Shown here: in pieces, positions 19,901 to 30,482 of the stretch
Layout of the letters: every line of letters starts with the position of its first letter
How positions within the stretch are numbered: the first letter of the stretch is position 1
NCBI GenBank assembly: GCA_028876495.1
Contig: JAGWRO010000093.1
Coordinates: 1 to 64,000, forward strand
Length of the DNA stretch: 64,000 nucleotides
From: Bacteroidota bacterium
GTDB lineage: Bacteria; Bacteroidota; Bacteroidia; Chitinophagales; Chitinophagaceae
Reading direction: 5' to 3'
Translations under genes and position numbers: made by a program
The notes under the pieces: model-generated
The model's database searches: none
Seen by the model: only the letters and a program-made list of their open reading frames with translations
Told to the model about the DNA's origin: nothing

Positions 19901-20565
19901 CCATGGGAAGGGATAAAATGGTGATTGTTAACCTTACCAATAAATTTCTTACGCCACACGACAGGCGTGTTAGAATCCGCACTACCATGCAAATTTATTG
20001 GGATCATATATTCTTCTCCACAGGAAAAGTAAAAGCTCCTGCAAAAACTTATGACTTAAAAATGATGGCTGCAAATTTGGATTTCCGCGGTTACTCAGCT
20101 TCCTATCACAAAGGCGGACCTTACGGCCCGCAATGGTTTAACTATTATGATGTAACCAAAGGGCAAAAATGGAGAGATCTAACGGGCAACTATACACGCT
20201 ATGGAGATGTTTTGCCTTTGTTGAAAAAAGCCGATGACCAATACATCATTTGTGACGGAGGCGACGAAGTAACGATCGATTTTGATGCAACCCATCTGCC
20301 TGCTTTACCCAAAGGATGGAAACGGGATTTTATTATTTACAGCGAAGGATGGGTAAAAGATGGCGATATGAACACTGCATACGGACAAACAGTAGCTCCA
20401 TTGCCGTTTCACGATATGCCTTCTTATCCTTACAGTAAAAATGTTCACTACCCAACAGATAAAGAACATAGAGAATACCAGGAGAAGTATAATACAAGAA
20501 AAGTTTCTACCGAAGCTTTCAGAAACGCAATTAAATTAGGCAGTTTTGCAAATGAAAAGAATTAA
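16966..20565 (+). CDS. large TPR, FG-GAP and ASPIC/UnbV lipoprotein
   Basis: About 1199 residues. ATG 16966 is preferred over a TTG nine codons upstream because it directly precedes the signal peptide, which ends in the lipobox FAGC. Then come TPR units (ALQYLSQNHLDEAVAAFQQA, GLTRLYLLQKNYTDAEDLAK and the following repeat), FG-GAP blades with calcium loops (DYDNDGYQD, DFDQDGDLD, DWDDDGDLD, DYNNDGTLD, DFNFDGDRD), the ASPIC/UnbV domain (LGIGAQVELKSGDLYQ to IIWPNG), and a C-terminal region of about 400 residues starting at CPFLFTWNGKEFVFLKD and rich in Trp and Tyr. It is an anchored envelope protein, divergent from the UnbV-UnbU-TauE operon. Function unknown; the TPR part suggests a scaffold or partner-binding role. 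Confidence 0.88.
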   Translation: MFAFLNFRKSFLHSFFTFFVISILVFAFAGCVSKTKDNNDTSKANPKDLALQYLSQNHLDEAVAAFQQAIKMSPDDISSYLGLTRLYLLQKNYTDAEDLAKKGLKIKPDNVDLKLLLADIYSLKNDKENAVSVLNEIIEKDPKNVIAYYTLAELDTSSSDEELRKNYLLKVQSLVPANIVPRVHLTELFAREGKTDSSLFYLQSIKKIAVGFTDAAEKAYAKSASLLEASQPTAALPYLQQFHELMKISPEYASGIDEIEIPKMVAGYFDFDTNIAVSAFDSTSGSHPKDNSSLKAPLTFKVVSGIPGSVIENGSKAENGVLAVADYDVQGNMYIYSSYVATGTSTSKAYLSVNQGGTFKECTVNGGIAHKGQDLDATFADYDNDGYQDLFVATTDGIIVYKNKGDGSFDRITENIGLNNSANANKILFADFDQDGDLDMYVAGKGGNKLFRNNGDGTFTENAAAMNLTGDKKGTVSMDFGDWDDDGDLDIFTLGEDGSIHLLNNNRHSNFSDISKTVGLNNPQFTGTALTLGDYNNDGTLDILVAGGPGGKCFLLKNEAGHFVPDEKASEQLSNSLMGIKVYDVAFVDYDNDGHQDIVIAGINDNNSEKGIKLFHNDGAKGFSDASSLLPDNVMQAYKISIADFNFDGDRDLFFAGPNGVQLARNDGGNYSNYVQVQLTGLSFGSSKNNRLGIGAQVELKSGDLYQLKTIKGPLTEFGVGSRTQIDALRIIWPNGVPQTIVDPTRKQRALEQAELKGSCPFLFTWNGKEFVFLKDMLWRSALGMPVAIHGKDTTFAYSEPSKEYLMIPGDKLQPRNGLYTLKISEELWEAVYFDKAQLFAVDHPDSVDAYVDERFVAPPYPGKKVYLVSHQHLPVSATDGKGNNVLPKLEKYDFQYVSNFSMGKYQGVAKEHDLILDLGKKAETNSLLLYMRGWIFPPDASINTELTQTNKYQLQAPSLQVINKEGKWQTVIPNIGYPMGRDKMVIVNLTNKFLTPHDRRVRIRTTMQIYWDHIFFSTGKVKAPAKTYDLKMMAANLDFRGYSASYHKGGPYGPQWFNYYDVTKGQKWRDLTGNYTRYGDVLPLLKKADDQYIICDGGDEVTIDFDATHLPALPKGWKRDFIIYSEGWVKDGDMNTAYGQTVAPLPFHDMPSYPYSKNVHYPTDKEHREYQEKYNTRKVSTEAFRNAIKLGSFANEKN

Positions 20566-20669
20566 ATTTCTTCAGCATAAATAATAAAAGGGAGCTATAG
20601 TAAACCAACAAATAATGCGGATTTCTGTTTGTAGAGCATCCATGCTAACTTTATCAAAATTTATAAATC

Positions 20670-21140
20670 ATGTTTGATACTTTAAGTAATGAGCAAATAA
20701 TAGATGTTGTTTCTAATAGTCTTGTAGGAAGGTTAGGCTGCCATGCAGACGGTAAAACTTATGTTGTGCCTATAAGCTATGCTTATGATGGAGATTATAT
20801 TTATGCAAGATCATTTGAAGGGATGAAATTAACTATGATGCGAAAAAATCCAAATGTTTGTTTCCAGGTTGATAAAATGGAAAGTATGTCAGATTGGGAA
20901 TCGGTAATTATTTGGGGAACTTTTGAGGAGCTTACGGATAAAAAAGAAAGAGAAAAGGGGTTAAAAATATTACTTTCAAGAATTCTTCCCAATGTATCAA
21001 GCAGAACTGTAAAGTTTACTCCTGAGTGGCCTTTCCCGACCAATGATTTTGAGAGGATTGATGGTATTGTTTTTAGAATCCGCATCAATGAGATGACAGG
21101 TCGGTGCGAAGAACTGCATTCGGATTCTTTTAGAAAATAA
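20670..21140 (+). CDS. pyridoxamine 5'-phosphate oxidase-like flavin-binding protein
   Basis: 156 residues with the split beta-barrel of the PNPOx/FMN-binding family: LVGRLGCHADGKTYVVPISY at about 18-37, YIYARSFEGMKLTMMRKNPNVCF at about 45-67, and the ending EELHSDSF. This small subfamily (often called NimA-like or flavin-nucleotide-binding) binds FMN or F420 and can reduce nitro compounds or quinones. It is a lone gene between the large UnbV lipoprotein and a convergent operon; a weak A/T-flanked hairpin lies at its end. Confidence 0.85.
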   Translation: MFDTLSNEQIIDVVSNSLVGRLGCHADGKTYVVPISYAYDGDYIYARSFEGMKLTMMRKNPNVCFQVDKMESMSDWESVIIWGTFEELTDKKEREKGLKILLSRILPNVSSRTVKFTPEWPFPTNDFERIDGIVFRIRINEMTGRCEELHSDSFRK

Positions 21141-21168
21141 AAAACGATTGTAGTAAAGCGTTTTTTTT
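21141..21168. terminator. weak intrinsic terminator
   Basis: AAAACG (21141-21146) and CGTTTT (21159-21164) form a short stem followed by more T. It lies between two convergent genes. The stem is mostly A-T, so it is only a weak candidate. Confidence 0.4.
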
Positions 21169-21205
21169 GTGAATACAATTGCCTTCCCCATGTTATTACC
21201 TGAAA

Positions 21206-22720
21206 TCATAACACCGCAACCGTGTGGTGATACATATTTTTTGATGCGGGATCAAGGAGGCCGGCTATATTAAAAGGTTGAATTCTTTCTTTTACAAGAT
21301 TGGTAAAATCTCTAATTTCTTCAGTTGAAGGCGCTTTTGAAGAAATTATTTTCAGCAAATCATCATAAGAATTATAAACCATTTTCCTGATGTTAGGATC
21401 ATCCGCATTTAAAAAATATCCGGGAGCTTTATTTTTTAACCTTCGCTGTTCGTGGGCAATGGTTGCCGCAAAATAAAACATGGACCATACATTGAAAAGT
21501 TCAAAATGGGCCATTGTTTTATAGCATCCAGCAATAAGACAATCCGCCAGTTTTAATTCCTCAAAAACTTTGTGTTCGTATTCTTGTAAGCTTTTGTAAA
21601 ATAATGTGTCGTTGCCCCAAAACTGTTTGATACTATCAACCAGTTTTTCAACTCCTGAAAGCGTGTGAGCGATTCCTGAACTAAACAACGGATCCACAAA
21701 ACCAACTGTATGCGGTAATGCAACCCAACCTTCTCCAAAACAATGATTTAATTTTCTTTGCAATCTTGCAGAGCGGATAATTTTTCCCGGCATCTTTGCT
21801 AATGTAGCGTCTTTGAAAATAGTTTTGATAGACGGATATTTTGCAAGTAAGTCATTCCATATTTCCTCTGTTGACAATTTATCATACGCTCCTTCACTAT
21901 CATCAATGACAAAGCCCAAACTTGTAAGATCATTGTTAAATCGAAGCATCCACAACCAGCCTTCATCAAGGATTTGATGCAAAGCCGAATGATCAGGATT
22001 ATAAGGAAAATCATTAATCGGGATGTTGAATTTTTTGAGCATTTCCTTCCAAAGAGGAACATGATCAAAATGAGAAAACAGGGCAAATGAATTGGTGAAA
22101 AAACCAGAAGAAGAAGATTCAATTTCAAACAATCTCCCGGCTAAATCACCGCTACCGGTAGCATCAATAAAAAAAGAAGAATAGATCACCTCATTTTTAT
22201 CAGAACGGCTGACACGAAATTCCCATTCGCCAATCCGTGTAGCTGTCGTAATCTCAGCAAGATCAAAATAATCAATACCGCTTTCTTTTACTTTGCTTAC
22301 CAAGAAAGCATCAAAATCAGCGCGCAGCCAATTAGTGTCTGATTCAATATCACTTGAACTGGCAGCCACCAAAAGTTCGTTTTTATGATTTTCATCTGTT
22401 GTAAATTCTTCTCCCGGATAGTGCTTAAAAAAACTAAATCCTCTTTTGATGCCGCAAACAATTTCCGGGTGCGATTGTTGCCACGTGCCATATCTTGAAA
22501 AATCATACAGCCAGGGAAGATCATAGGTCGATGACAATTTTCGCAAAATCATATCTGCCACCGGTGTGGAAGATTCACCGATTGTAAAACGCGGATGCTG
22601 TCCTTTCTCCAGTAAACCAACTTTAAAGCCTGATTTTTGTAATATCAATGCAGTAAGCGAACCGGCGAAACCAGCTCCTGCTATCAAAATATCATAGTGA
22701 TTTTCACTTCTGTTCTCCAT
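21206..22720 (-). CDS. FAD-dependent oxidoreductase, halogenase/geranylgeranyl-reductase-like
   Basis: 504 residues. The FAD-binding Rossmann motif GAGFAG is at about 15-20, then GESSTP near 48-53 (the GExxxP loop of flavin halogenases and related enzymes), DATGSGDLAGR near 188-198, and the second FAD motif GFVDPLFSSGIAHTLSG near 342-358. These define the tryptophan-halogenase/GGR superfamily. The halogenase signature WxWxIP is present only as WLWMLR, so halogenation is not supported and oxidation, reduction or hydroxylation is as likely. The ATG follows the radical SAM stop codon without a gap, so translation is coupled. It is the last gene of a three-gene operon. Confidence 0.85.
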   Translation of the reverse strand: MENRSENHYDILIAGAGFAGSLTALILQKSGFKVGLLEKGQHPRFTIGESSTPVADMILRKLSSTYDLPWLYDFSRYGTWQQSHPEIVCGIKRGFSFFKHYPGEEFTTDENHKNELLVAASSSDIESDTNWLRADFDAFLVSKVKESGIDYFDLAEITTATRIGEWEFRVSRSDKNEVIYSSFFIDATGSGDLAGRLFEIESSSSGFFTNSFALFSHFDHVPLWKEMLKKFNIPINDFPYNPDHSALHQILDEGWLWMLRFNNDLTSLGFVIDDSEGAYDKLSTEEIWNDLLAKYPSIKTIFKDATLAKMPGKIIRSARLQRKLNHCFGEGWVALPHTVGFVDPLFSSGIAHTLSGVEKLVDSIKQFWGNDTLFYKSLQEYEHKVFEELKLADCLIAGCYKTMAHFELFNVWSMFYFAATIAHEQRRLKNKAPGYFLNADDPNIRKMVYNSYDDLLKIISSKAPSTEEIRDFTNLVKERIQPFNIAGLLDPASKNMYHHTVAVL

Positions 22721-23650
22721 CTAATAATTACAGTTACAATTTATAGGTTGTTGAAATTGTTGCGTAAGATTCATTTGTTCCAAACGATGTTTCCGGGCTT
22801 CGAAACATTGAGGACAATCTGATAAAAAACCAATATCCCAGGTATCTACCAACACTCGTCCCTGTTGCAACGCAAGCGATCGTTCAAATACTTCTTCCAA
22901 AGCATCTAATGTTGGTGTAACGTATTCTCCCATTTGTTTTAAAACCTCCATTATACCGTTTCCTGGCCGGGTAGGAATAATGGAACAGCAATCTACGCCA
23001 CATTCAAAAGCAAACTGCACCGTTTTAAAAGTCCATTCAATATTTTCTCTTTGATCAGTTAGAAAAGGAGGATTTAAAAGAATGAAAGCACGCATTTGGA
23101 TTTTGTTTCTTCCCAAAAAACCGGTTGCTTCTCTAAAATCTTCGGGAGTAAGTTTCTTGTTTAGTTTAGGCAAAACATCAGGATGAATGGTTTCAAGCCC
23201 CATGGCTATTTCGAGAGTTCCACCAAGTTTTTCGTTAAATTCTACACAAGCATTGCCACAAAGATTGGGATGATTTTCAACAATCACTTTTTTGTATGAT
23301 TGAAGCCGATCAATAATTCCCGGATAATCTGAAATTGGAATAGCTTTTTGGTCGAAGAAATTGCTGCTGTTATAAAGTTTAATCGCAGTGGCTTTTGGAA
23401 GCCTCGCTAAAGCATAGTCTATCTGTTTTAAAATCGCTCCAGCCGGAGTTAAAGTTGTGAGTGTATTTTTCCATAGATCGCACATGGTACATTCAAAAGC
23501 ACATTCTTTACCGGTAAGAAAAATGGTATTTACCTGCTGCAAATTACCATGCTCATCCGGCTCCTCTTCATGGAGAAAATGATAAGGTATTTCAGGATTT
23601 ACTTTGTTTCTTTCCGGACGAAGCTTTTTAATATCATAGCTGTCAGGCAT
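22721..23650 (-). CDS. radical SAM protein (RaSEA/TIGR01210-like)
   Basis: 309 residues from the ATG at 23650. A start further upstream is possible, but this one overlaps the preceding stop by 8 bp, typical of coupled genes. Cysteines 50, 54 and 57 form the CxxxCxxC iron-sulfur motif (CAFECTMC). Further segments LETIHPDVLPKLNKKLTPED, RAFILLNPPFLTDQRENIEW and CSIIPTRPGNGIMEVL resemble the radical SAM family that includes the archaeosine enzyme RaSEA. The C-terminus has two extra cysteine pairs (DCPQC and NCNC) that may hold a second cluster. The substrate is unknown. The neighbouring ATP-dependent amidating-type protein and flavoprotein suggest one small-molecule or macromolecule modification pathway. 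Confidence 0.85.
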   Translation of the reverse strand: MPDSYDIKKLRPERNKVNPEIPYHFLHEEEPDEHGNLQQVNTIFLTGKECAFECTMCDLWKNTLTTLTPAGAILKQIDYALARLPKATAIKLYNSSNFFDQKAIPISDYPGIIDRLQSYKKVIVENHPNLCGNACVEFNEKLGGTLEIAMGLETIHPDVLPKLNKKLTPEDFREATGFLGRNKIQMRAFILLNPPFLTDQRENIEWTFKTVQFAFECGVDCCSIIPTRPGNGIMEVLKQMGEYVTPTLDALEEVFERSLALQQGRVLVDTWDIGFLSDCPQCFEARKHRLEQMNLTQQFQQPINCNCNY

Positions 23651-24971
23651 AGAGCGAATTGAAATAAGTGCGGTATTCCATTTCATCGTCGGAAAACATT
23701 TGCTTAAATGTATTTTCATCTGCCGCACCGCGCTGAAACCGGCGTTTCTCAAATACAGGCATATCGAAGCCGGTAACCGCCTTTATGCCTCTCCTGACAA
23801 TTTCACCTTTGAGGGCATACAATTCTTCTTCTTTCCAATTGGTCAATTCAATGAAAGGAATTCCTTCGGCCACTTCAATAACATTGGGCAATGCATAAGG
23901 ACTAAACCCTTTGAATCCTAATAAACGTGACGGGGCATAAGAACGTACATGTCCTCTGCTTTGTCCGCCTGTATAAGTAAGAGAATGTTTTATTTTATCA
24001 ACGCCCCACCCTTCCTGGTAAAGCATCGTGTTGTTTAGCACGCTTCGTATAGTAAGTTCAGTATTTTCTTCAATTGGATAATCCTTCAGGTTTTCATCAC
24101 CTCCATCTCCATCGGCCATGTATTTCCAATCAGGATAAAGTTTGCGTATTTGTTTGCACAATGCCAGCGCCATTGTGGCTGATTCAATGTCGAGCGGCTT
24201 ATAATCTTCCACCACTTTAATGGCATCTTTATAATTAACTGCAGATTGTGGTACATCCAACACTTCGAGGAAAAGCGATAATCCTAACTGATCCAAAAAC
24301 TGGTACGCCTGTTCCGCGTCCGGTCCGTTGTTTACTGAAAGTGTGAACGCTTTTAAACGCTGCGGAGAAAGGCCCATTTTCAGCATCAGATGGTAAAGCA
24401 CCAGGAAAACCGAACCACTGTCAATTCCTCCCGAGAATAATACACCGATCGGCTCATTTTCCGGAATCATTTTCAACCATTTCTGGCACTCATTAGCCAA
24501 CGCGCCTATATAGGCTTTTCCTATCTCATCGAGGTTATTGGTTAAGCGATTTCTTTGCGGAGCAAAAAAGCGTGTGTACACAGGGTTAGGATCAGGGCAG
24601 CCAATTACTTCCAATCTTACCACAAAATGTGCAGGAACCATCCTGGTGTAAGAAGGATGGAACTGCGAATGCAAATTTTTGGTTTTAAGAAATTCGTAAA
24701 TTTCATCCATTCGTTCTGCAACAATAAGTAAGGGACCTGCAACTTGTTTAGCCAAAAAATACCGCATCGGCCTTCCGATAGAACGCGCCATAAATACCTC
24801 CTGACCTACTTTTTCTACGATCGCAAACTGGCCTTCGATTTCACGAACTCGGCTTGCATCACCGGAAATAATTGCTGCGGTAACTTCTTCCGGCGACATG
24901 TTGAAAATGATATTGTTCTTATAATCAAGGAGGTTTACAAAGTTTTGAACGGTTTGGGATTTATTATCCAT
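23643..24971 (-). CDS. asparagine synthetase-like protein without glutaminase cysteine
   Basis: 442 residues. The C-terminal half is the asparagine synthetase ATP-pyrophosphatase domain: P-loop SGGIDSGS at 180-187, then YMADGDGGDEN near 285-295, matching the acyl-adenylate binding region. The first residues do not show the Cys2 nucleophile of class II glutaminases, although residues about 30-120 keep an Ntn-like fold pattern (EIEGQFAIVEKVGQEVFMAR). Such proteins usually form an amide or ring by ATP activation without glutamine, as in beta-lactam synthetases and lasso-peptide cyclases. It is shorter than AsnB (about 550). It heads the operon with the radical SAM and flavoprotein genes. Confidence 0.82.
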   Translation of the reverse strand: MDNKSQTVQNFVNLLDYKNNIIFNMSPEEVTAAIISGDASRVREIEGQFAIVEKVGQEVFMARSIGRPMRYFLAKQVAGPLLIVAERMDEIYEFLKTKNLHSQFHPSYTRMVPAHFVVRLEVIGCPDPNPVYTRFFAPQRNRLTNNLDEIGKAYIGALANECQKWLKMIPENEPIGVLFSGGIDSGSVFLVLYHLMLKMGLSPQRLKAFTLSVNNGPDAEQAYQFLDQLGLSLFLEVLDVPQSAVNYKDAIKVVEDYKPLDIESATMALALCKQIRKLYPDWKYMADGDGGDENLKDYPIEENTELTIRSVLNNTMLYQEGWGVDKIKHSLTYTGGQSRGHVRSYAPSRLLGFKGFSPYALPNVIEVAEGIPFIELTNWKEEELYALKGEIVRRGIKAVTGFDMPVFEKRRFQRGAADENTFKQMFSDDEMEYRTYFNSLYA

Positions 24972-25001
24972 TTTATTTATGCTTTAGATTTAAAAGGTTG
25001 A

Positions 25002-25364
25002 AAATTGAAACTGATTTTGAGCCTTTTAGTTTTTAAAATTTTAGTTTTCAGATTGAAGAGTTGCAAGTTATAAAAAAAACACTTTGTTATTTTTTCATTT
25101 TTTATCTTATCAGCTTTTACTTTGTTAAAATGAACTTTTCCTCAAAAAAATCAACATTCAGCAGTAAAAAAAACAAATAGGAAAGAATCTTATTCGCATA
25201 AATCATTAAACCTTTAGAAGAAGGCAATTTAATGATGTAATAAACGTTACTAAATTGCTAAATGCTCCTTTTTAAAAATATTATTATTATTAGATAAATA
25301 TAAAAAGGGCGAAAGTTGTAGTTATAAATTAATTGAATACTTTTGTACTAATGAATTTGTACTA
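25002..25364. other. AT-rich divergent intergenic region
   Basis: 363 bp between the asparagine-synthetase-like operon (minus) and the T9SS-domain gene (plus). It contains the well-formed promoter at 25316-25345 for the plus-strand gene. No open frame or RNA structure of note is visible. Confidence 0.55.
25316..25345 (+). promoter_or_regulatory. Bacteroidota sigma-A promoter
   Basis: TTG at 25316-25318 is followed after 19 bp by TACTTTTG at 25338-25345, matching TTG-N19/20-TAnnTTTG. The predicted transcription start (about 25352) is only some 13 nt before the start codon of the T9SS-domain gene. Confidence 0.8.
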
Positions 25365-25700
25365 TTGAAAAAAATTTTCTACATATTTATTTTTATTGCC
25401 GGTTTTCAGTTGAGCAGCAATGCCCAGGTGAGGCATGTTTCAAACGATGATACAAAAACAGTAAAGTTTTACCCTAATCCAGCATCAAGTTTTATCAATT
25501 TTGAGTTTGCCGAAAATTACAACGACTCTTATACTCTGGTAATTTTTAATTTTATTGGAAAAAAAGTAGAAGATTTCAAAGTAACTGATCAAAAAATTAC
25601 CGTCTCTCTTACCGATTTTTACCGTGGTTTGTATATTTTTCAGCTTCGCGATAAGCAAGGAAATATTGTCGAATCCGGTAAATTCCAGGTCGTTAAATAA
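25365..25700 (+). CDS. minimal T9SS type A sorting-domain protein
   Basis: 111 residues: signal peptide MKKIFYIFIFIAGFQLSSNA, a linker of about 12 residues, then a complete T9SS C-terminal sorting domain (FYPNPASSFINFEF at about 35-48, DFYRGLYIFQLRDKQGN, ending FQVVK). There is no passenger domain. The T9SS domain normally directs a larger protein across the outer membrane and is removed; a protein made of little else is unusual, although Por-secretion-tail-only proteins occur. The start codon is TTG, placed right at the signal peptide; the nearby ATG at 25351 is out of frame. Its own promoter lies just upstream. Confidence 0.85.
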   Translation: MKKIFYIFIFIAGFQLSSNAQVRHVSNDDTKTVKFYPNPASSFINFEFAENYNDSYTLVIFNFIGKKVEDFKVTDQKITVSLTDFYRGLYIFQLRDKQGNIVESGKFQVVK

Positions 25701-25764
25701 TTTCTTTAACAAATACCACACGCTTCCTCTCTTCTCTTAGTGTCATTTTGTCTAATTTTTAATA

Positions 25765-25794
25765 TTGGCAAAAAGTTTGACTGTAGTACCTTTG
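25765..25794 (+). promoter_or_regulatory. promoter of grpE-dnaJ
   Basis: TTG at 25765-25767 and TACCTTTG at 25787-25794 with a 19-bp spacer, an excellent match to the Bacteroidota housekeeping promoter. It is 37 bp upstream of the grpE ATG. Confidence 0.85.
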
Positions 25795-25831
25795 CAGCCA
25801 ATTTAGTAACGGATAAAAAAACAAGAAAGAT

Positions 25832-26410
25832 ATGCAAGAAAATGACTTCAAAAATCAAACAGAAGAAGAGGAATTACCTATGGAAGTAAATGAAGAAAAC
25901 GCGTCTGAAACTGATGAAGCAAAAGAAGAAGAGGTGCAGGAAACTTCTGATAAAGGTAGCAGCAATATTGAAAAATTAAAATCTGAATTAGCAGAACAAA
26001 AAGATAAATACATTCGGCTTTTTGCAGAGTTCGACAACTACAAAAGACGTACTTCGAAAGAAGCAATCGAACTAAGACAAACTGCAGGTAAAGAAGTGAT
26101 TATTTCCATGTTGGATATTTTAGATGATATGGACAGAGCAGAGCAACAACTGCAGGAAAGTGACATGGAGAACTCAATCAAAGAAGGGGTATTATTGGTA
26201 TTTGATAAGTTCAGAAAAACATTGCAGGCAAAGGGATTGAAACCATTAAATACATTGCATTCTGAATTTGATGTTGAAAAAGATGAAGCAGTTTCTGAGA
26301 TTGATGTTCATGATAAAAAATTAAAAGGTAAAGTAGTTGCTGAATTACAAAAAGGATATTACCTTAACGATAAACTGATACGATTTGCAAAAGTAGTGGT
26401 AGGAAAATAA
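25832..26410 (+). CDS. grpE: nucleotide exchange factor GrpE
   Basis: Releases ADP from DnaK in the cytosolic Hsp70 cycle. The first 45 residues are acidic and disordered, followed by a long coiled coil (SNIEKLKSELAEQKDKYIRL, then AEFDNYKRRTSKEAIE, the GrpE signature region) and a C-terminal beta domain (FDVEKDEAVSEIDV, then KGKVVAELQKGYYLNDKLIR). The length of 192 is normal. It is in one operon with dnaJ 67 bp downstream. Confidence 0.97.
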   Translation: MQENDFKNQTEEEELPMEVNEENASETDEAKEEEVQETSDKGSSNIEKLKSELAEQKDKYIRLFAEFDNYKRRTSKEAIELRQTAGKEVIISMLDILDDMDRAEQQLQESDMENSIKEGVLLVFDKFRKTLQAKGLKPLNTLHSEFDVEKDEAVSEIDVHDKKLKGKVVAELQKGYYLNDKLIRFAKVVVGK

Positions 26411-26477
26411 TCATTCCTCAAAATACAAAATTCTAATAACCGTAAATGCCCGTTGATGGCAGTTTACAATAAATATT

Positions 26478-27653
26478 ATGGCAAATACAATGTCTTCAAA
26501 AAGAGATTATTACGAAATTCTGGGTGTAAGTAAAAGTTCCACCGCTGATGAAATTAAAAAAGCTTACCGAAAAGTTGCTATGAAATTTCATCCTGATAGA
26601 AACCCGGGAGATCATACAGCAGAAGAAAAATTTAAAGAAGCTGCAGAAGCTTACGAAATTTTAAGCGACTCTGATAAGCGCGCGCAATACGATCGCTTTG
26701 GCCATAACGCATTTGGTCCCGGGCGCGGCGGCGGCTTCTCAGGCCATGGCATGAACATGGATGATATCTTCAGCCAGTTTGGAGATATTTTTGGCGATGA
26801 TATGTTTGGCAGTTTCTTTAGTGGAGGATCAAGAGGGGGAGGATCAAGAAGAAGCCGTGGTACAAGGGGTAGCAATCTTCGAGTAAGAATAAAAGTCAAT
26901 TACGAAGAGATCGCCAAAGGAACTACAAAAACCATCAAGGTAAAAAAATACATTATCTGCAACACTTGTGGTGGCTCGGGCGCTAAAGATAAAAACAGTG
27001 CTCAAACTTGCAGAACCTGCGGTGGTAACGGGCAAGTACGTAGAGTTCAAAATACATTTTTAGGGCAAATGCAAACGGTAACTACCTGCCCTGATTGTAA
27101 TGGCGAAGGAAGTGTGATCACCAGCAAATGTACCGCATGCAGGGGCGAAGGAAGAGTGTATGGAGAAGAAACGGTAACGCTTGAGATACCTGCCGGCGTA
27201 CAGGAAGGAATGCAATTAAGCATGAGCGGAAAAGGAAACATGGGAGAAAGAGGAGGTGGCCCCGGCGACCTGGTGATCTTAATTGAAGAAGAACCACATC
27301 CATTTTTACATCGTGAAGGATTGAATGTAGCTTATGACCTGCACATTTCTTTTCCTGAAGTTGTTTTTGGTACTCAAATAGAAGTACCCACTATAGATGG
27401 TCGTGCAAAAATTAAAATTCCGTCTGGCACACAAAGTGGAAAAATTTTCAGATTAAAAGGGAAAGGTTTTCCTTCTATCAACAGCCATGAAAAAGGAGAT
27501 CAGCTTATCCAGGTAAATGTATGGACGCCGCAAAATATTTCTGAAGTGGAAAAAATAGCGCTTGAAAGTTTGCAGGACAGTGAAAACTTTAAGCCTAAGC
27601 CTGATAAAAACGACAAAACTTTCTGGGAAAAAATAAGAGAAACTTTTAGTTGA
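26478..27653 (+). CDS. dnaJ: chaperone DnaJ (type I)
   Basis: Hsp40 co-chaperone that binds unfolded substrate and stimulates DnaK ATPase. Domains in order: J domain with HPD at 38-40, Gly/Phe-rich segment (about 75-115), zinc-finger domain with four CxxCxGxG repeats ([32 protein letters not shown]), and the C-terminal peptide-binding domain ([16 protein letters not shown]). Start is ATG 26478; the ATG four codons later is also possible. 391 residues is the usual length. It lies downstream of grpE and is followed by two hairpins. Confidence 0.97.
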
Positions 27654-27680
27654 TATAAGAGAAATTTTAAAATCAGGCTT

Positions 27681-27712
27681 ACAGTAAAGCAACCAATTTT
27701 AAGGTTTACTGT
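27681..27712 (+). terminator. hairpin after dnaJ
   Basis: ACAGTAAA (27681-27688) and TTTACTGT (27705-27712) form an 8-bp stem 28 bp after the dnaJ stop, followed by TT and an A-rich run. It probably assists termination together with the stronger hairpin at 27736-27774. Confidence 0.55.
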
Positions 27713-27735
27713 TTAAAAAACTGATATAATTTTAT

Positions 27736-27780
27736 AAGTAAGCCACAGCAGAAAATACATGACGTGGCTTACTTATTTTG
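27736..27780. terminator. 11-bp stem-loop between convergent genes
   Basis: AAGTAAGCCAC (27736-27746) and GTGGCTTACTT (27764-27774) are a perfect 11-bp inverted repeat followed by ATTTTG on the plus strand. It lies between the ends of dnaJ and the convergent FAH-family gene and is a likely bidirectional terminator. Confidence 0.75.
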
Positions 27781-27824
27781 TTGAAAAAAATGTTGAATCT
27801 TTTTGGGTGATAAAGTAATTGTAA

Positions 27825-28436
27825 TTATTTTATCTCAAGAGAAAGCACAAGTTCTTTTTCAAAATATCCTTCAAGTACATCACCCACAATACACTCTCCT
27901 ACTCCTGCGGGCGTACCGGTATAGACAAGATCTCCGATATTAATTGAAAAATAATTAGAAATGTTGGCAACAACCTGGTCAATAGAAAAAATCATTTCCG
28001 ATGAATTCACCTTTTGTACGACTTCTTTATTTTTTGTAAGCGAAAAATTGATATTCTTTTTATTCATCGCAGGTGTTATCTCCATAAATTTTCCTACAGC
28101 CGCTGAATTGTCAAAAGCTTTCGCCTTTTCCCACGGCAAACCTTTTTCTTTTAATTGCTTTTGAATATCACGTGCAGTAAAATCAATACCTACAGAAATT
28201 GCGTTGTAATAATTAGATGCGTGTTTTTCCTGTATATATTTTCCGTTTTTGCTGATACGCACTACCAGTTCAGCTTCATAATGAAGTTCGTTAGTAAACT
28301 CGGGATAATAAAAGGGAGTATGGCCCTGAACGAGCGCACTCTTGGGTTTCATAAATATTATGGGTTCTTCCGGAACGTCGCTACCCATTTCCTTAGCATG
28401 TTTGGCATAATTACGCCCTATACAAAATATTTTCAT
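27825..28436 (-). CDS. fumarylacetoacetate hydrolase-family protein
   Basis: 203 residues, the compact single-domain FAH fold that hydrolyses or decarboxylates 2-oxo-acid C-C bonds, as in fumarylpyruvate hydrolase or oxaloacetate tautomerase. The N-terminal motif IGRNYAKHAKEMG and the metal ligands in HYEAELVV (near 70) and GIDFTARD (near 105) are conserved, as is KAFDNSAAVG. The substrate is not defined. It is a lone gene convergent with dnaJ and upstream of nothing obviously related. Confidence 0.88.
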   Translation of the reverse strand: MKIFCIGRNYAKHAKEMGSDVPEEPIIFMKPKSALVQGHTPFYYPEFTNELHYEAELVVRISKNGKYIQEKHASNYYNAISVGIDFTARDIQKQLKEKGLPWEKAKAFDNSAAVGKFMEITPAMNKKNINFSLTKNKEVVQKVNSSEMIFSIDQVVANISNYFSINIGDLVYTGTPAGVGECIVGDVLEGYFEKELVLSLEIK

Positions 28437-28536
28437 TTCAATCAGGTTTAGTCAGGGCTTTTCAAAGGTTGTGCGAAAATATAAAAAACAAATCTAAAAA
28501 AGAATTTATCTAACGATTTAATTACTTATTAGAAAT

Positions 28537-29109
28537 TTAAAAATTCAAGTGATTTACTTCACTCATTGTTCTGTCAATTCCAATAGTTGCAAACATCTCA
28601 ATTATCTCTGAACATTTTTCAATTTTAGTTTTTACAACCGGAACTTCCTCCTTCAGCCATCGGCTTAATACAAATTCAACCTGCATCCCCCTTGGAAACT
28701 GGTTGCCAATTCCAAAACGTAATTTAGGAAATTCGTCGGTACCCAAAATATTTTGAATATCGCGCAAACCGTTATGACCTGCATCACTGCCTCGTTTCCT
28801 TAACCGCAGTTTACTCAAAGGAAGCGCCAGGTCATCAACTATTGTCAAAGAATGTTCTACAGCAATCTTTTCTTTATCCAGCCAATATTTTATCGCTCTG
28901 CCACTAAGATTCATAAATGTAGTTGGTTTTATACAAACGAATATTTTTCCTTTAAATTTTATCTCGGCCAAATCTGCCAGGCGTGATGATTGAAAAAAAG
29001 CATTGTGTTTTAATACAAATGCATTTAAAACATCAAAACCGATATTGTGCCTTGTATTCACATATTCATTTCCGGGATTACCTAACCCAATAATTAAAAA
29101 CTTCGACAT
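28537..29109 (-). CDS. pth: peptidyl-tRNA hydrolase
   Basis: Cleaves peptidyl-tRNA released by stalled ribosomes. 190 residues, with GLGNPG at 8-13, the catalytic histidine 21 in NTRHNIGF, the FMNLSG loop near 68-73 and KRGSDAGHNGLRDI near 108-121, all typical of bacterial Pth. The start codon sets the beginning of the first strand (MSKFLIIGLGNPG). In many Bacteroidota pth is next to a ribosomal protein L25 gene; that gene is absent here, and the upstream side is occupied by the small-RNA region. Confidence 0.96.
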   Translation of the reverse strand: MSKFLIIGLGNPGNEYVNTRHNIGFDVLNAFVLKHNAFFQSSRLADLAEIKFKGKIFVCIKPTTFMNLSGRAIKYWLDKEKIAVEHSLTIVDDLALPLSKLRLRKRGSDAGHNGLRDIQNILGTDEFPKLRFGIGNQFPRGMQVEFVLSRWLKEEVPVVKTKIEKCSEIIEMFATIGIDRTMSEVNHLNF

Positions 29110-29183
29110 AAGAACGAAGATAAATTGATTGAAGTATTTTCAAACGAAGATTCAGGTTTTTTTTGCAAGGCTTTATTAAAGTA

Positions 29184-29193
29184 GTAAACAAAC
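29184..29193 (+). repeat. GTAAACAAAC motif copy
   Basis: Exact copy, preceded by A, in the space upstream of pth. See the finding on the recurring 11-mer. Confidence 0.55.
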
Positions 29194-29221
29194 ATTTAAA
29201 CCAGCTTTTAATTTTCTACAC

Positions 29222-29255
29222 GTAGTTATACGATTTTTTTAAATCGTTAAACTAC
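29222..29255. repeat. long inverted repeat upstream of sRNA unit 1
   Basis: GTAGTT-ATA-CGATTT, a TTTT loop, then AAATCG-TTA-AACTAC form two perfect 6-bp stems separated by a symmetrical 3-nt internal loop. It is followed by TTTTT on the plus strand. No gene on the plus strand ends here, so it could block readthrough into the sRNA unit or be a protein-binding site. Confidence 0.55.
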
Positions 29256-29265
29256 TTTTTGAACA

Positions 29266-29277
29266 GTAAATACAATA
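29266..29277 (+). promoter_or_regulatory. upstream element of sRNA unit 1
   Basis: GTAAATACAATA begins exactly 60 bp before the -7 box of unit 1. The identical 12-mer begins exactly 60 bp before the -7 box of unit 2 (29733-29744). Identical sequence and spacing suggest an activator site or UP-like element. Confidence 0.6.
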
Positions 29278-29302
29278 CTTGCAAAAAAAGGCAATAGTGC
29301 TC

Positions 29303-29333
29303 TTGCGCAGGGAGCCCGGGCTCTATATCTTTG
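29303..29333 (+). promoter_or_regulatory. promoter of sRNA unit 1
   Basis: TTG at 29303-29305 and TATCTTTG at 29326-29333 with a 20-bp spacer. The spacer contains the perfect palindrome GAGCCCGGGCTC (29312-29323), a possible operator that is missing from unit 2. Confidence 0.8.
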
Positions 29334-29339
29334 TTCCAG

Positions 29340-29563
29340 AAATTGATTGATGGCTAACAAACATTAATCAAACAATCCAAATCCATTGAAAAAAACGTTT
29401 CCTTTAATCCGGGAAAAACCAAAAAAATCTGATACCTAAGAAGACTAACCATTTCCGTTGAAAACCCGGCTTTAAAATCCAAGCTGAAAAAGTATCCTGA
29501 AAAAAACCAAACCCTGGAAATTAAATCGTTAAACTTCTGCCCCGAAAGCAGAAGTTTTTTTTA
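29340..29563 (+). ncRNA. putative small RNA, unit 1
   Basis: A predicted transcript of about 224 nt runs from 7 nt beyond the -7 box to an intrinsic terminator. The 5' hairpin pairs TTGATTGATG (29343-29352) with CATTAATCAA (29362-29371). It is followed by the unpaired block ACAATCCAAATCC (29372-29384) and a small TTTCC/GGAAA hairpin (29398-29402 with 29412-29416). The unpaired block and the stems are conserved in unit 2 while both loops differ. No credible protein is encoded. A trans-acting regulatory RNA is the simplest reading; no Rfam family is recognised by me. Confidence 0.7.
29532..29563 (+). terminator. terminator of sRNA unit 1
   Basis: AACTTCTGC (29532-29540) pairs with GCAGAAGTT (29548-29556), followed by a run of T. 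It is a strong intrinsic terminator with no protein gene in front of it. Confidence 0.9.
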
Positions 29564-29584
29564 TCTTCTGTTTTTTAAATTCCA

Positions 29585-29594
29585 GTAAACAAAT
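29585..29594 (+). repeat. near-copy of GTAAACAAAC motif
   Basis: GTAAACAAAT, one base different at the last position, preceded by A, lying just after the unit 1 terminator. Confidence 0.4.
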
Positions 29595-29732
29595 AAAATA
29601 TACTGATTTTCATTTTACTTTCTTTCAAATCATCCAAGCAGTTTATTTAATTTGTATTTTGAATATCGAGCAAGAAAAATAATTGTTCGTATTTCTACTA
29701 ATCGCAGTATTCGTTAATTTACGGTCAATTCG

Positions 29733-29744
29733 GTAAATACAATA
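29733..29744 (+). promoter_or_regulatory. upstream element of sRNA unit 2
   Basis: Second copy of GTAAATACAATA, beginning 60 bp before the -7 box of unit 2, the same distance as in unit 1. Confidence 0.6.
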
Positions 29745-29769
29745 GTTCTAAAATTAAGCAGTCCTGCCC

Positions 29770-29800
29770 TTGTGCACAGGTTGCTGACTCTCTATCTTTG
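29770..29800 (+). promoter_or_regulatory. promoter of sRNA unit 2
   Basis: TTG at 29770-29772 and TATCTTTG at 29793-29800 with a 20-bp spacer, the same geometry as unit 1. The first transcribed bases TTCCAGAA are shared by both units. Confidence 0.8.
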
Positions 29801-29806
29801 TTCCAG

Positions 29807-30057
29807 AAGTTGATTGATGTTCAATAAACATTAATCACAATCCAAATCCGATGAAATGACTTTTCCCTTTATCCAGGAAAAACCAACAATAATCCGATAT
29901 CAATCAACTTCTTTTGTTTTTAAATCAATATCTGAGAAAAATATAAATCCTATGAAATCCAGCCTGTAAGATGGCTTAAACTTTAACCCTGAAAAACTAA
30001 AAAACCCAGGTTTAAATCTTTAAAAAGCTTCCGCGAAACACGCGGAAGCTTTTTTTA
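29807..30057 (+). ncRNA. putative small RNA, unit 2
   Basis: A predicted transcript of about 250 nt, paralogous to unit 1. The 5' hairpin pairs TTGATTGATG (29810-29819) with CATTAATCA (29829-29837) around a different loop. The block ACAATCCAAATCC (29837-29849) is identical, and a TTTTCC/GGAAAA hairpin follows. The second half is more diverged but alignable. It ends in a terminator of unrelated sequence, so the RNA bodies were duplicated and kept, with the terminator stem replaced. No open frame longer than a few codons is shared. Confidence 0.7.
30022..30057 (+). terminator. terminator of sRNA unit 2
   Basis: AGCTTCCGCG (30026-30035) pairs with CGCGGAAGCT (30041-30050) around the loop AAACA, followed by a T-run. 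Very strong intrinsic terminator. Confidence 0.92.
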
Positions 30058-30116
30058 TTGAAAACTTATAACTTTACGTGGTATCTCATTTATTTCATTC
30101 TTTAAAAATTATTTTT

Positions 30117-30482
30117 ATGATTGAAACTATTTCGGGTTTTCCACCTTACGTTGCCGCATTTAATGCCACAGAGAATATAACAGGAAAAGATTATGATGAA
30201 ATAATTAATCCTCTGGTAAGTAAAATTTATAAAGAACATGGAAAAATAAATTATCTGCTCGTTCTCAATACATCATTGAGCAATTACAGTTTAGAAGCCT
30301 GGCTAAAAGATGCCCTTTTAGGATTTGTATATTTTACCGAATGGAAAAAGATCGGTATCGTTTCAAATCAAAAAAGTATAAAAAATTTTACCGATTTATT
30401 TGGCCATCTATTGCCCGGTACTACAAAAGGATTTTTAATGGAAGACCTGGACGAAGCCAAACTTTGGATTGCAGCAAAATAA
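30117..30482 (+). CDS. SpoIIAA-like (STAS-fold) protein
   Basis: 121 residues from ATG 30117; a GTG 13 codons upstream is less likely because the conserved fold begins at MIETISGFPPYVAAF. The remaining sequence (GKDYDEIINPLVSKIYKEHG, KINYLLVLNTS, AWLKDALLGFVYFTEWKKIG) matches the SpoIIAA-like/DUF3478 family, a small STAS-related alpha/beta fold of unknown cellular role. It stands alone between the sRNA units and cbpA, and an 11-bp inverted repeat (30526-30574) follows it. Confidence 0.82.
   Translation: MIETISGFPPYVAAFNATENITGKDYDEIINPLVSKIYKEHGKINYLLVLNTSLSNYSLEAWLKDALLGFVYFTEWKKIGIVSNQKSIKNFTDLFGHLLPGTTKGFLMEDLDEAKLWIAAK

Follow-up and report, generated by a model that had tools for sequence, protein, structure and literature searches.

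Two tandem noncoding units from a Chitinophagaceae genome are predicted members of a multicopy paralogous small RNA family

The window analysed here, a stretch of 64,000 nucleotides, carries two tandem noncoding units on the plus strand, at 29266–29566 and 29733–30057, both read directly from the sequence. They lie between a divergent peptidyl-tRNA hydrolase gene (28537–29109, minus strand) and a gene for a SpoIIAA-like protein (30117–30482, plus strand), which is followed by a DnaJ-type gene; these neighbours are given as context only. The first-pass annotation of this DNA had described the units as a local pair of paralogous small-RNA genes, each with its own promoter and terminator and with RNA structure kept. 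The sequence supports this description and the two copies stand, but they are two of the seven that the genome was found to contain.

The predicted promoter of the first unit (RNA1; 29266–29333, plus strand) consists of GTAAATACAATA at 29266, an AAAA tract, the dyad GCAATAGTGC, TTG at 29303–29305 and TATCTTTG at 29326–29333. That of the second unit (RNA2; 29733–29800, plus strand) has GTAAATACAATA at 29733, the dyad, TTG at 29770–29772 and TATCTTTG at 29793–29800. In both promoters TATCTTTG begins 60 bp after GTAAATACAATA, the spacer behind TTG is 20 bp, and the shared start TTCCAGAA follows at 29334 and 29801, an offset of 467 bp; all of this had been read correctly before. The module, of a Bacteroidota type and common to the family copies described below, agrees with their sequence logo and matched the pattern derived from it with no mismatches in RNA1 and one in RNA2. 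A scan of the units with a sigma-70 promoter pattern reported no promoter.

RNA2 (29801–30057, plus strand; about 257 nt between predicted ends) is a typical copy, as indicated by its fold and by profile and covariance-model searches. A 17-bp long-range helix is predicted between a 5′ strand, AGAAGTTGATTGATGTT at 29805–29821, and a 3′ strand, GATATCAATCAACTTCT at 29896–29912, with a T-rich tract after it, and can be formed in nearly all relatives. The helix encloses a loop (29822–29895) in which the UCC motifs AATCCAAATCC, TTTTCCC, TATCCAGGAAAAACC and AATCC were read directly. It competes with a local stem, in which AACATTAATCA at 29827–29837 pairs with 29811–29821 once the long-range helix is open. 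The terminator, a 14-bp stem with a T tract at 30022–30057, was seen only in the fold and is absent from the list returned by the terminator pattern scan.

RNA1 (29334–29566, plus strand; about 233 nt, likewise with predicted ends) is atypical. Its local hairpin, formed by TTGATTGATG at 29343–29352, a 9-nt loop and CATTAATCAA at 29362–29371 (29343–29371 in all), is present, as is a terminator with a 10-bp stem and a T tract at 29531–29562, which appeared both in the fold and in the pattern scan. Promoter and terminator are intact, but the stretch that would supply the long-range helix with its 3′ strand is missing. Since the orthologue in one relative (genome G018) retains that strand, RNA1 may be a decaying copy.

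Folding energies of both units were lower than those of dinucleotide shuffles (z = -3.51 for RNA1 and -6.41 for RNA2). The stem TTGATTGATG/CATTAATCA with its 9-nt loops, the common block ACAATCCAAATCC and the dissimilar terminators all lie where the first-pass annotation had placed them; a second hairpin that it had drawn from TTTCC and GGAAA is missing from the consensus fold of 46 full-length copies from the genus. The spacing between the two helix strands was spread over all three reading frames among 83 copies (34, 28 and 21), which indicates that the units are noncoding and bears out the absence of a protein frame.

The distribution of the units was examined in the same genome (4.70 Mb in 99 contigs) and beyond. 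A DNA search recovered six copies and a second query together with a covariance model (R1, built from 63 sequences) added a seventh, giving two copies in the window, three on contig C80 and one each on C27 and C5. The three on C80 share a stretch (20000–28500; L037) with the RNase P RNA gene (L037 5587–5964; Rfam RF00010). The DNA query matched 21 of 39 genomes, the genome under study being counted in both figures. Within the genus 17 of 19 genomes were positive, the two misses being 59% and 79% complete, so that the presence in close relatives on which the first-pass annotation had made its case depend was found. Three of four genomes from other genera of the family also matched, and none of 15 from other families of the order did. 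The recurrence of the unit in seven copies, together with its presence in relatives, points to more than chance.

An iterated profile search, seeded with the six copies and applied to the fetched loci of genomes with DNA-query matches, returned 88 matches, including one fragment. Model R1 detected the RNA in at least 16 of 198 genomes of the order, all 16 belonging to the same family, which contributed 35 members to the set. A second model (R2, 46 family-wide sequences) found it in at least 88 of 244 sampled family genomes and at least 38 of 101 genera, with up to 10 copies in each genome, this being the kind of covariance search that had been proposed at the outset. At the scale of the phylum R2 was positive in at least 7 of 395 genomes, all seven from Chitinophagaceae; neither the R1 search of the order nor the R2 search of the phylum gave a match outside this family. 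These counts are lower bounds, since strict filters were used.

A pattern built on the helix strands identified at least 116 stretches in named genomes. The genera among the matches listed were Ferruginibacter, Ginsengibacter, Flavisolibacter, Flaviaesturariibacter, Paraflavitalea, Pseudoflavitalea, Flavitalea, Terrimonas, Cnuella, Flavihumibacter and Pseudobacter, all of which we take to belong to Chitinophagaceae; other listed matches were metagenome-assembled genomes labelled Chitinophagaceae, Chitinophagales, Sphingobacteriales, Bacteroidetes, Bacteroidota or bacterium. Named strains bearing the RNA include Flavisolibacter ginsengisoli DSM 18119 and Ginsengibacter hankyongi BR5-29. The assignment of the two units to a multicopy paralogous small RNA family of Chitinophagaceae is thus well supported at the level of sequence, and several copies with a promoter and a terminator each are what is found in multicopy paralogous sRNAs generally.

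The core of the predicted structure is a nearly invariant long-range helix of 14–17 bp, whose strands lie 72–113 nt apart around a large loop of about 80–110 nt. An alignment of 63 copies pairs the 5′ strand AGAAGUUGAUUGAUGUU with GAUAUCAGUCAACUUCU in 97.4% of cells, compared with 24–59% in controls in which the partner was slid by 1–3 columns, and in the 46 family-wide sequences 96.1% of the helix cells are paired. Cells changed on both sides numbered 14 in the family-wide set against 3.7 in shuffles (0 of 500), an example being UA to CG at columns 20/172 in six sequences. By other measures the signal was small: pairs with changes on both sides did not exceed shuffles in the family-wide set (4 against 2.5; 52 of 500) and numbered 2 against 0.9 (44 of 500) in the 63 copies, further pair types were not above shuffles (13 against 12.5; 249 of 500; family-wide set), one slid control equalled the structure in changed cells (7 against 6; 63 copies), and the RNAalifold covariation term was -0.32. 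The evidence from covariation is limited because the helix hardly varies. On inspection, L126 and L135 carry an additional A in the 5′ strand and, matching it, an additional U in the 3′ strand; at L125, L129, L134, L142, L145 and L148 this U occurs without that A.

Energy comparisons likewise favoured the long-range helix. To within 0.6 kcal/mol it gave the minimum-energy fold of 78 of the 83 genus copies examined and of 29 of the 35 family copies, with a median advantage over the best helix-free fold of 8.5 and 11.5 kcal/mol, respectively. In at least one family copy the long-range fold was unfavourable (minimum difference -7.5). Four of the 87 genus copies were skipped here as the pattern did not match their 3′ strand; one of the loci, L059, has this strand with a single change. 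The consensus fold of the 46 full-length genus copies contained the long-range helix and nothing else. The 5′ hairpin named first by the earlier reading can also form: local pairing of the same 5′ strand with AACAUUAAUCA (the element represented by 29827–29837 in RNA2) is found in 91.3% of cells, and five pairs show changes on both sides against 2.1 in shuffles (3 of 500). Its place as the core structure was rejected, and it is retained as an alternative fold: both stability and conservation favour the long-range helix, and by eye the local partner could not be made out in some genera.

The composition of the loop and the 3′ tail was compared with expectation in 122 RNAs. The loop is poor in G (9%); ATCC is in excess there (436 against 187.7 expected), as is ATCCA (245 against 49.8), which is also abundant in the tail (117 against 27.4). 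TTCC is rarer than expected, and GGA is not enriched in either the loop (69 against 68.1) or the tail (95 against 110.7). As related copies inflate such counts, the test was redone on a set of 20 genera, each represented by a single copy chosen non-randomly from the fetched loci. UCC occurred 104 times, where shuffles gave 60.6 (at most 74 in 500 shuffles), and UCC doublets spaced 6–8 nt apart occurred 30 times against 5.2 (maximum 13). Between genera the loop sequence changes and the UCC doublets persist, the shared linker ACAATCCAAATCC being one instance of the repeated motif. The predicted unpaired probability was 0.74 at UCC sites and 0.69 in the rest of the loop. Further downstream, a terminator-like hairpin is present in 74 of the 86 copies examined and lies between +241 and +287 in 56 (by a criterion of our own, applied without a shuffle control).

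Conservation also extends to the promoter. With one representative for each of 20 genera, the -7 box, [TC]AnnTTTG, was present in 20 of 20 and a GTAnnnnC element in 18 of 20. The logo of the 84 genus copies reads GTAAATtcaata, AAAATt, GcAaTa.TgC, TTG and TATCTTTG; 30 family copies were included in addition, and 5 of 35 family promoters, in which CATCTTTG replaces TAnnTTTG, were left out. In the genome under study the module pattern, with up to three mismatches, gave five matches, each upstream of one family RNA, and none in a reversed control. It misses the copies on C27 and C5, and thus finds five of seven, and it had been derived from the family's own copies. The confinement of the pattern to these RNAs in this genome suggests, at the level of sequence, a dedicated regulator that reads the module.

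Comparison with known RNA families gave no assignment, in agreement with the earlier reading. No Rfam 15 family other than tRNA reached its gathering score in the window, and at 20 family loci none did so other than RNase P. A permissive search (E ≤ 10) of 29100–30130 returned 32 weak matches, mostly on the RNA2 terminator, the best having an E-value of 0.006 and 20.5 bits against a gathering score of 440; membership of a known family was accordingly rejected. The RNA is not named in the literature searched, that is, titles and abstract openings, mostly outside the subscription journals and excluding supplements.

The closest precedent is FopS, a paralogous sRNA family of Bacteroides thetaiotaomicron with promoters of the sigma-ABfr type, which binds the RRM protein RbpB and represses susC mRNAs; it is described as single-stranded at its 5′ end and then closing with a terminator, its structure reportedly having been deposited in Rfam (PMC11697453). 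Both are multicopy paralogous sRNAs in Bacteroidota with promoters of this type, and the host genome here has a single RRM protein. Unlike FopS as published, the present family is about 250 nt long, with a long-range helix and a UCC array, and its 5′ end lies within the predicted 14–17 bp helix instead of being single-stranded. Rfp18, a conserved structured sRNA of Flavobacterium and so likewise of Bacteroidota, differs by description: it is reported to be conserved within its genus, to affect protease mRNAs and to have a predicted pairing region in the third stem-loop (PMC9723704). An array of short repeated motifs in a multicopy noncoding RNA also recalls the CsrB/RsmZ type, from which the family differs in that its motif is UCC, without enrichment of GGA, and is displayed in one large loop. 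RNAs of the CsrB/RsmZ type occur in several copies and titrate a protein, CsrA, via repeated GGA motifs. With no match at an Rfam gathering score, these differences from FopS and CsrB/RsmZ and no name in the literature searched, the RNA family appears from its sequence to be new, within the already known kind of multicopy paralogous sRNAs.

Two further accounts of the units were considered. 6S RNA is likewise noncoding and has long-range pairing, and a 6S-like RNA that binds RNA polymerase would fit the pairing around a large open region seen here. The 32 weak matches in 29100–30130 (E ≤ 10) include no 6S family, and neither multiple copies nor a UCC array is known as a 6S feature; the model of 6S-Flavo (RF01685) had no match in the genome under study either, which shows little as the same search matched no control genome. 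We regard this account as the least probable of all. Barely more credible is a mobile, MITE-like repeat that carries a promoter and has no RNA function. The copies are both dispersed and tandem, and their number varies between species, as such a repeat would predict; compensatory changes in the helix and promoter boxes kept across 20 genera speak against it, as does a recurrent genomic site. Among the matches listed, the commonest neighbour (50 of 120 loci, mostly directly upstream and on the same strand) was a PLP-dependent enzyme with a CBS domain, presumably a cysteine synthase or a cystathionine beta-synthase-like enzyme, followed by a periplasmic-binding BtuF-like protein (36 of 120). The family had no match in plasmid or phage records, nor by pattern in viral contigs, and a mobile origin was rejected.

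The context set comprised 137 matches at 120 loci (at least 116 stretches of named genomes and the genome's own loci), and its counts are approximate because the helix is nearly palindromic, so that matches can appear, and were counted, on both strands. The C5 copy is flanked by the PLP/CBS enzyme and a BtuF-like gene; the remaining copies in this genome have other neighbours, and no one downstream gene accompanies every copy. The PLP/CBS enzyme was present in 27 of 28 genomes without an RNA match (20 from the same family, 8 others). In those 27, motif inspection of the 1.5 kb behind the enzyme revealed no such unit, and missed copies were rejected as an explanation for their lack of matches. 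At some loci between L149 and L264, copies are found near genes that look fructose-bisphosphate aldolase-like (two unrelated types) and near one that looks response-regulator-like.

The family probably acts, to judge from its sequence, either by holding an RNA-binding protein or by pairing with mRNAs, and of these we infer the former to be slightly more likely. In this tentative reading, to which we give somewhat less than even credence, the units are two of seven paralogous sRNA genes of about 250 nt that titrate an RNA-binding protein. The nearly invariant helix would pin a large, mostly unpaired loop, in which the array of UCC doublets would form a multivalent binding surface; doublets that persist while their surroundings change, in a loop held by a strong helix, fit a multivalent protein-binding RNA. 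A signal that switches the promoters on would yield many RNA copies and draw the protein off mRNAs or other sRNAs, and the local hairpin, which would arise while the 3′ strand is still to be transcribed, is probably an intermediate in folding. The most plausible candidate partner is the RRM protein, as the genome gave no match to Hfq (with a control positive in only 5 of 14). RRM genes occurred in 30 of 30 RNA-bearing genomes, a hand-picked subset of the 88 bearers, and in 27 of 30 hand-picked genomes in which no RNA match was obtained. The RRM protein is thus compatible with this role and was rejected as a discriminating partner. Across these 60 family genomes the number of RRM_1 matches ranged from 0 to 9 per genome and seemed higher in RNA bearers, uncorrected for genome size.

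Several observations count against titration. Four genomes of the Ginsengibacter group carry several RNA copies each and one or two RRM genes, exposure of the UCC sites is only marginally above that of the remaining loop, the sequence of the helix is conserved beyond the needs of pairing, which titration does not explain, and repeated short motifs could equally be repeated antisense seeds. An antisense family of the FopS kind, repressing mRNAs with the loop (AAUCCAAAUCC) or a helix strand as seed, is a possibility that we rate not far behind. It has the Bacteroidota precedent of FopS, in so far as that system is described (PMC11697453), the strong, seed-like conservation of the helix strands and a G-poor, largely open loop in its favour, but these strands pair with each other in the predicted fold and the loop sequence varies among genera while the UCC doublets stay. 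Moreover, the perfect 11-nt complement of the linker, GGATTTGGATT, occurs at 15 sites in the genome, five within the RNA genes themselves and the other ten away from translation starts on a frame check. The earlier proposal of the linker as a seed for start codons is therefore unsupported and was rejected, as regards perfect pairing in this genome. A conformational switch, in which the local hairpin serves as antiterminator and the long-range helix with its U tract as terminator, so that a signal would determine the length of the transcript, is improbable. The 5′ strand does have two possible partners, both with some compensatory changes, and behind the long-range helix most aligned copies have a T-rich tract; against this, the long-range fold is much the more stable in most copies, a loop of 72–113 nt is long for an intrinsic terminator, the distal terminator-like hairpin follows in most copies, the local partner is unrecognisable in some genera and the copies share no downstream gene.

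The wider form of the titration reading, a sponge family of new architecture with up to about ten copies and a dedicated promoter module that globally titrates an RRM-type protein in Bacteroidota lacking Hfq, is more doubtful, and we place it a shade below the antisense alternative. Post-transcriptional control in Bacteroidota is little known, with Hfq not found in this genome, and to our knowledge only few sRNA families have been studied in the phylum. The family offers a handle on the role of RRM proteins in Chitinophagaceae and on the regulator of the promoter module, a pattern seen at no other gene of the genome, and a single covariance model detects it in at least 38 of 101 sampled genera, including named strains.

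Two minor features were noted around the promoter boxes. In most of 82 copies, and also upstream of 29266 and 29733, a TTAC-like element lies 13–14 nt before GTAA and forms a spaced dyad with it, possibly a second regulator site beside GCAnTAnTGC. In addition, the spacers between the -33 and -7 boxes at L126, L129, L135, L142, L148 and L314 carry TTATCCACA or TCCACAT...ATGTGGA, motifs which in our estimation resemble a DnaA box.
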